Below, piece after piece: positions 54,079 to 55,744 of a stretch of DNA of 64,000 nt (position 1 is its first letter; each line of letters opens with the position of its first letter). The stretch spans positions 2,108,001-2,172,000 of the forward strand of contig NC_013131.1 of assembly GCF_000024025.1 (NCBI RefSeq), read 5' to 3'. The notes below the pieces were generated by a model. That model was not told the DNA's origin. It saw only the letters and a list, made by a program, of their open reading frames with translations, and ran no database searches. The DNA is from Catenulispora acidiphila DSM 44928. Its GTDB lineage: Bacteria; Actinomycetota; Actinomycetes; Streptomycetales; Catenulisporaceae. The position numbers and the translations under genes are program-made.

Positions 54079-54376
54079 ACTTTCCACGCCTTCATGATTT
54101 CTTAAGAATTCCGCCGCTGGTCAAAAACGCACCCGGGAGAAGTTGCATACGAGTTACTCACGCGGGTGTAAAGTCCTCGGCGAGATAGGGTGTTCCTATT
54201 GGGAATTCGTTCGAGAGCCCCGATGCCGGGACTCCAGGCTGGTGTGCACGTGGGAGCGCGTGTGGTCTCACGCGTCGTGACCGACAGAGTCCGGATCGTT
54301 CCCGTTAACAAGCTGTGACCTGGGTTTCCGTCGGTCCGCTCTCCCGATCTCCTATCGCGCGTAGTAGATTCCCTGT

Positions 54377-55744
54377 GTGGTTGACATGCGAGAGCCGCTC
54401 TTCGCGGCGGGTATCTACTGCTGCGTACCGCACATCGACGACGACGATCAGAGCACTGTCGACGTCCGGGAGCTCAAGTGCCGCGAGTACGCGCGGTCCC
54501 GCCGGCTCCACGTCACGGCTGCGGCGGTGCAGGCCGACGCGGTTCGCACGGTGTGGAAGACCAAGGGCGTCAAGCCGGGCTGGGCGGCGACGCTCGCGGC
54601 CGTGGAGCGCAAGAAGATCAATGACCTGATTCTCTACGCGCCCGGCTCCCTCCTGCGCCACCGCGCGAACGACCTGGTCCGCCTGCTGAACGCCAGCGAG
54701 CGCAACGGGATCGTGCTGCACAGCGTCGGCGACGAATGGGACCTGGCCGACCCGGCGCAGCGCCGCACCCTGACCGACCGCGCGTCGGTCGCGTGCCGCG
54801 CCGCGCAAGCGGTCTCCCGTGCTTCTCGCGCCGCCCACCGAGGCGCCGCCCTCGCCGGCCGCCCGCACGGCGGGGGACGCCGTGCGTTCGGCTACGAATC
54901 CGGCATGGGAGAGGTGATCCCGGCCGAGTCCAAGGTGGTCCGCGAGGTGTTCGCCCGCTTCCTCGACGGGGAGACGCTGCGCGCGATCGCGTTCGACTTG
55001 AACGATCGCAACGTGCCGACGGCGCTGGGTTCGGCGTGGACGGTCGGCGGCGTCGGCCGCATACTCGACGCCCCGCGCTACGCCGGGATCCGCGTCTTCC
55101 GCGGCCAGGTGCGCGCCGACAACGGCGGCTACCTGCGCGGCGCCTGGGAACCCTGCGTCAGCATCGAGGATTGGGAACGCGTGCGCACGCTCCGTGCCGA
55201 GCACGCGCCCCGCCCCAGCCCGACCAGCAACGGCGGCGGCCGCTCGGGCTACCTGCTCACCGGGCTGGTCGAGTGCATGGCGTGCGGACACAGCATGGTC
55301 GGCTCGGTCGTCGGCGGCTACCGCATGTACGCCTGCGCCTCGACGCGCAACCAGCCGCCGGAGGAATGCGCGCGCTCGATCGGCGCCACCTCCTTCGAAC
55401 TCCACGTCCAGCAGGACGCGATCCGCATCCTGCAGGAGTGGGACGCCGCTCGCATAGCCTCGCTGCCGATGGTCGGCAACCGCCGCCCCGACCTGCGCGC
55501 TCATGAGGACGGCGAGCACGCGGCGTTCGGCGATATCCACGGCGGCGTGGTGGTGCGCTCGGCCTCGGCGATCGAGGGCATCACCATCGGTCCGGACGCC
55601 GGCCAGGACTGGCCGCGCGTGCCGATGCGGCGGCGGGCGGAGGTGCTGCGGTTCCTGTACACGGTGATCCGGGTCGGGCCGAAGACCACGAGCCGCGGGG
55701 TGTTCGATCCGGGTCGGATCGCTTTGGTGCCGCATCCGCTGTAG
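54377..55744 (+). CDS. Large serine recombinase-like protein lacking catalytic residues
   Basis: 455 residues. The order of domains is that of a large serine recombinase: resolvase-like N-terminus (about 10-150), recombinase domain (about 170-270, FGYESGMGEVIPAESKVVRE and APRYAGIRVFRG) and a zinc ribbon (VECMACGHSMVG ... YACAS). The catalytic motif, normally YARVS, reads YCCVP: Arg becomes Cys16 and Ser becomes Pro18. The later DR-x-x-R element is also lost (APGSLLRHR). It should bind DNA but cannot make the serine-DNA link. No integrated phage genes or attachment sites were found. The start is GTG 54377. Confidence 0.85.
   Translation: MVDMREPLFAAGIYCCVPHIDDDDQSTVDVRELKCREYARSRRLHVTAAAVQADAVRTVWKTKGVKPGWAATLAAVERKKINDLILYAPGSLLRHRANDLVRLLNASERNGIVLHSVGDEWDLADPAQRRTLTDRASVACRAAQAVSRASRAAHRGAALAGRPHGGGRRAFGYESGMGEVIPAESKVVREVFARFLDGETLRAIAFDLNDRNVPTALGSAWTVGGVGRILDAPRYAGIRVFRGQVRADNGGYLRGAWEPCVSIEDWERVRTLRAEHAPRPSPTSNGGGRSGYLLTGLVECMACGHSMVGSVVGGYRMYACASTRNQPPEECARSIGATSFELHVQQDAIRILQEWDAARIASLPMVGNRRPDLRAHEDGEHAAFGDIHGGVVVRSASAIEGITIGPDAGQDWPRVPMRRRAEVLRFLYTVIRVGPKTTSRGVFDPGRIALVPHPL

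Follow-up and report, generated by a model that had tools for sequence, protein, structure and literature searches.

Gene A and Its Domain Architecture

The window, the whole 64,000-nucleotide stretch of DNA analysed here, belongs to a Catenulispora genome assembled as a single contig of 10,467,782 bp. On its forward strand (54377..55744) lies gene A, an unbroken reading frame that starts with GTG and that ORF reading, Pfam, and alignment identify as encoding a 455-aa homologue of the large serine recombinases with a dead active site. Three Pfam domains follow one another in the usual order, all above the Pfam cut-offs: Resolvase (26.7 bits, cut-off 23.3), Recombinase (64.8 bits), and Zn_ribbon_recom (26.2 bits, cut-off 25.3). 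The former catalytic/dimerisation domain, delimited by Pfam and used for the dN comparison below, covers residues 10–150 (54404..54826, + strand), the Recombinase DNA-binding domain (PF07508) residues 182–275 (54920..55201, +), and the zinc ribbon (PF13408), placed by Pfam and alignment, residues 293–333 (55253..55375, +). The ribbon's zinc-coordinating cysteines (Cys300, 303, 320, and 331) are conserved in A and its paralogs B and C. Around residues 366–385 (55472..55531, +), the alignment reveals a short variable linker at the site where active relatives carry a coiled-coil insertion.

Protein A is a large serine recombinase by descent. A Foldseek search with its AlphaFold model, which is of moderate confidence (pLDDT 71, pTM 0.39), ranks complexes of the Bxb1, SPbeta, and phiC31 integrases at the top. 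The initial annotation had described an unbroken gene with a replaced catalytic site but an intact recombinase domain and zinc ribbon, and both Pfam and the alignment bear this out.

Loss of the Active Site and the Synapsis Module

Aligned with its closest active relatives, protein A departs from them in two active-site motifs. The first, at residues 14–18 (54416..54430, +), reads YCCVP where active relatives read YCRIS, with Arg8 changed to Cys and Ser10 to Pro; the replacement had been noted before, but the reference motif then given, YARVS, is not that of the closest active relatives. The second, at residues 90–94 (54644..54658, +), reads GSLLR in place of DRLMR (DRLxR). The later Arg/Asp element, earlier considered lost, has indeed been deprived of its Asp and first Arg, but the last Arg is retained. 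With residue equivalences that we take from the alignment and the active site of gamma-delta resolvase, R8, S10, D67, and R68 are all replaced, R71 is retained, and the counterpart of R45 is Lys. The combination of a catalytic Ser with an Arg two residues earlier is absent, with Pro18 and Cys16 in these positions in protein A and the same residues in B and C. The alignment also shows that A has no counterpart of the coiled coil, which in active relatives is inserted in the C-terminal zinc domain and spans about 30 residues. Judged by sequence, protein A lacks three attributes of an active enzyme, namely the catalytic Ser/Arg, the Asp-Arg-x-x-Arg motif, and the coiled coil.

The Cys/Pro substitutions recur in the orthologs of the six other isolates, in the two MAG orthologs that cover the stretch (L043 and L062), that is, in all A orthologs with a readable N-terminus, and in every copy of B and C. 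Because orthologs and paralogs bear the identical substitutions, chance and sequencing error are excluded as their source. The search for homologues with these changes, which the initial annotation had advised, thus found them across the genus, and the case that would have pointed to a simple dead gene, relatives with a normal site differing from this copy alone, came out the opposite way.

Conservation of Gene A in Catenulispora

Each of the seven Catenulispora isolates, including the one that the window comes from, has an A ortholog in its genome, at 87–100% identity; those of C. rubra, C. pinisilvae, and C. pinistramenti are 87–88% identical to A. MAG G025 encodes an ortholog at 67%, MAG G027 has a copy divided between two contigs, and in MAG G021 (77% complete) no A ortholog was found. 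The locus is syntenic, with an alpha/beta hydrolase, an ArsR-type HTH protein, a P450, a CGNR protein, an MFS transporter, and an LCP protein encoded in a common order where contigs allow. Gene A is among its better-conserved members (87–92% identity, compared with 72–85% for the hydrolase and 72–80% for the CGNR protein).

Selection on A is purifying, with Nei–Gojobori omega values of 0.09–0.23 over 21 pairs from the seven isolate genomes; window-based values are 0.14–0.18 for A, 0.14–0.47 for the P450, and 0.27–0.49 for the HTH gene. Mean dN amounts to 0.058 in the former catalytic domain, 0.065 in the recombinase domain, 0.037 in the zinc ribbon, and 0.309 in the short linker. The DNA-binding parts are therefore conserved, as had been proposed, but they are not the only ones: the N-terminal domain is still constrained too, since its mean dN is close to that of the recombinase domain. 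The locus does not resemble that of a mobile-element integrase, being fixed and syntenic across isolates with chromosomal neighbours. Searches of phages and plasmids with A returned matches that were all below 60% identity (24.6–32.2% among the best-covering matches listed), so no recent mobile source of A was found.

Dead Paralogs and Family History

Three further dead proteins accompany A. Paralog B is 45–47% identical to A and present in all seven isolates (position 4,685,723 in the window's genome). Paralog C occurs in five of the seven, being absent from G000 and G017. Paralog D, known from two MAGs, reads YCRTP, with the Arg retained and Pro in place of Ser. In the tree, A–D form a single clade (100/100) separate from every active sequence included; D is basal within it (94/93), on a long branch that makes its placement less sure. 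All four are without the coiled coil and share an extra Gly in the motif PHGGGRR. Omega is 0.09–0.21 for B and 0.26–0.34 for C, which is the less constrained.

The simplest history would be loss of the Ser, then of the Arg, then duplication giving A, B, and C, and the dead lineage apparently lost its Ser before its duplications. The dead family is of a single origin, in the Catenulispora lineage. No A–D members were detected outside Catenulispora among 14 family, 395 class, and 397 phylum genomes, at the sensitivity of class and phylum searches in which the best four candidates per genome were scored. Four class matches outside the genus (L096–L099) have the normal YCRIS.

At most loci, C and D lie directly 3′ of an ABC operon for a solute-binding protein, permease, and ATPase, and the start of C overlaps the stop region of the ATPase gene. 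The operon precedes C in G009 (L051). C as a fixed part of this operon was nevertheless rejected, as it is intact in G003 with no adjacent ABC transporter operon (L049), while G000 and G017 have the operon and are missing C. A gene that by eye encodes a secreted sedolisin-like peptidase adjoins the B and C loci (L045:11769-14081, L054:11094-13454, L053:11476-13572, and L163:1679-3775); one of these was scanned with Pfam, which detected nothing beyond a putative Ig domain. The window's genome also contains, at 4,371,988 (L155), a recombinase-domain ORF whose open frame lacks a resolvase catalytic motif and which may be a truncated integrase.

Promoter Palindrome and BlaI-Family Repressors

Upstream alignment and pattern search place a palindrome, ATCTCCTA-N7-TAGTAGAT, at 54347..54369 immediately before gene A. 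It is a putative BlaI-type operator and overlaps a putative −10 element, TAGATT (54365..54370, +), which was read from the sequence 6 nt 5′ of the GTG, so that the A transcript would be leaderless. The palindrome recurs at all A and B promoters read. In the form ATCTnCTA-N7-TAGTAGnT, it has two exact copies in the 10.5-Mb genome, at the A and B promoters only, and a pattern search allowing up to one mismatch adds no other place there. Among 14 family genomes, exact matches are confined to the A and B loci of the nine Catenulispora genomes with the dead family, and one-mismatch matches occur at other places too. The equivalent palindrome of B sits between B and a divergent BlaI-family gene, that of A is retained in MAGs where neither B nor the B-linked BlaI gene was found, and the promoter of C has no ATCTnCTA-type palindrome.

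The core CTA-N7-TAG, as found at 54347-54369 over the A promoter, also lies 5′ of BlaI-family genes of several other types among those compared, with a shuffle chance of about 1–4% each, figures that are descriptive because the motif was chosen after viewing the sequences. It is not upstream of a 78%-identical BlaI gene paired with an M48/M56-like protease gene, nor of the three most distant BlaI genes. The two closest BlaI types have a common recognition helix, AYTTV(L/M)TVM. Given the recurrence of the core and the common helix, the A/B palindrome most likely belongs to BlaI, which would act on A in trans, and A and B are probably under BlaI control. Attachment-like sites near A had been proposed as something to look for; a palindrome does lie in its promoter, but reading it as the operator through which a BlaI-family repressor controls A fits better than reading it as a site to which protein A binds.

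Two BlaI-family repressors of the window's genome deserve mention. One is an orphan divergent from B (L045:9241-9609; 4,685,244-4,685,606), and the other (L116:1504-2909, ~6.50 Mb) is arranged in tandem with an M48/M56-type protease gene, with no operator of its own; their recognition helices are nearly identical. Farther upstream, the intergenic region of A contains a second conserved imperfect palindrome, TTACTCACGCGGGTGTAA (54154..54171, from the upstream alignment). It was rejected as a regulon motif, its one genome copy being equal to the reversed-pattern control. An Rfam scan of the A upstream region detected no RNA family.

Proposed Function and Alternative Explanations

Substitutions shared across the genus, purifying selection, and duplication of the dead lineage uphold the earlier proposal of a dead protein kept for a new job, and A is not a simple dead gene. 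Regulation or locus-specific DNA binding, the job then suggested, is plausible because all DNA-binding modules are retained and the synapsis module is deleted. Experiments on the Listeria integrase indicate what each part contributes: without its coiled coil, the protein binds attP/attB at wild-type affinity and integration is abolished, whereas without the zinc domain binding is impaired (PMC3783163). The coiled coil being dispensable for binding, the parts that A lost are those that a pure DNA binder can spare. Since A retains the parts required for binding but not those required for integration, a dimeric DNA-binding regulator is favoured. We thus consider it reasonably probable that A is an exapted, recombination-incompetent large serine recombinase acting as such a regulator under BlaI control.

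The DNA binding, target sites, signal, effect, and phenotype of A are those that we infer as follows. The N-terminal domain and long helix would still dimerise the protein, and the recombinase and zinc-ribbon domains would bind an att-like site of about 40–50 bp and thereby influence transcription or the local structure of the chromosome. A and B would be kept silent by BlaI-family repressors, either the orphan divergent from B or the repressor next to the M48/M56-type protease gene, or both, until some signal, perhaps envelope stress, lifts the repression. No binding site was identified for protein A itself, and the A/B palindrome resembles another repressor's operator. C is dispensable and less constrained, and the structure model is of moderate confidence, which leaves the dimer and DNA geometry of A conjectural, points that weigh against a regulator. 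A could equally well work through a protein interaction partner or in a nucleoid role.

Self-binding at the ATCTnCTA palindrome was at one time the leading reading and was demoted once its core was seen upstream of BlaI-family genes, some with no dead recombinase nearby. Autoregulation of A and B through ATCTnCTA-N7-TAGTAGnT over their own promoters would suit the confinement of the exact palindrome to these promoters and its persistence at A in MAGs with no detected B or B-linked BlaI, and the half-sites, 4–11 bp off centre, may match roughly the position of a recombinase domain. Yet the B operator is positioned between B and the BlaI gene, C is without such a site, and serine-integrase att sites are centred on a dinucleotide, unlike the odd-length centre here, which together leave autoregulation unlikely. 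Similarly improbable is a role as an anti-integrase that protects the chromosome by blocking attachment sites or by entering mixed dimers with the integrases of incoming elements. Retained DNA-binding domains with lost catalysis are what a dominant-negative integrase would have, and active relatives (L059–L061) do occur in the genus. The closest of these are nevertheless only about 33–34% identical, a search of the window's genome at E 1e-40 found none, and G003, G009, and G023 carry them alongside A, B, and C; long vertical inheritance of a single clade at fixed loci resembles a housekeeping role instead.

The two remaining explanations are far less probable. Several lost active-site residues, together with the disappearance of C from two isolate genomes and its faster evolution, would fit a decaying relic, a functionless pseudogene on its way to loss. 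This reading is strongly disfavoured, and very unlikely in our estimate, by full-length copies free of stops and frameshifts, by the low omega of A in the seven isolate genomes, by conserved synteny and promoter, and by duplications that apparently came after the Ser was lost. Hardly credible is continued catalysis through another nucleophile, such as the new Cys16: a Cys two residues from the old Ser position is conserved in A, B, and C, but the equivalents of Asp67 and Arg68 are also lost, as is the coiled coil on which synapsis depends, and in D the Ser is replaced by Pro with no such Cys nearby.

Relation to Known Systems

Work on large serine recombinases has dealt almost entirely with their role as integrases and their use in genome engineering. 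Searches of open-licence papers turned up no precedent for inactive or exapted members, and one in a subscription journal could be missed. More tentatively than the dimeric regulator itself, we suggest that A–D may represent a genus-specific regulator class derived from a dead large serine recombinase, in which cutting and synapsis were apparently lost before duplication and A and B are the dedicated output of BlaI-family repressors. If so, the DNA-recognition modules of these recombinases can be domesticated as stand-alone binders, A and B would be an unusual target for a BlaI-type repressor, and naturally uncoupled binders would be at hand for learning large serine recombinase target specificity. 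The orphan A/B operator pair defines a putative two-gene regulon that is directly testable.

The nearest active counterparts are actinomycete recombinases of the YCRISHxxDDDQTGVDRQE type (L059-L061 and L063-L068), which share with A the domain order, the recombinase-domain and zinc-ribbon motifs, and 30–35% identity. They keep Arg8, Ser10, DRLMR, and the coiled coil; in A–D, neither Ser10 nor the Asp-Arg pair survives, and there is no coiled coil. Matches in the PDB assign the same fold by sequence profile to A, the Listeria A118/LI integrase (4KIS), and SPbeta YokA, and structure search does so for the Bxb1, phiC31, and SPbeta integrases. LI, Bxb1, and phiC31 are, unlike A, active phage integrases that possess a coiled coil and act on attP/attB partners. 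The resemblance of the engineered delta-CC and S12A integrases to A is limited to the loss, in each, of one of the two functions.

Phage Mu Ner and host SfsB exemplify how a DNA-binding protein of a mobile element can be taken over for regulation by the host, as covered in a review of exapted mobile-element proteins (PMC8987985). A would share this recruitment with SfsB, but SfsB derives from a repressor, and no large serine recombinase with dead catalysis appears in the passages of the review consulted. The A and B promoters resemble BlaI/MecI (penicillinase repressor) regulons in their CTA-N7-TAG palindrome, found 5′ of BlaI-family genes in the family, and differ in that the putative targets are dead recombinases instead of beta-lactamases or M56 peptidases.
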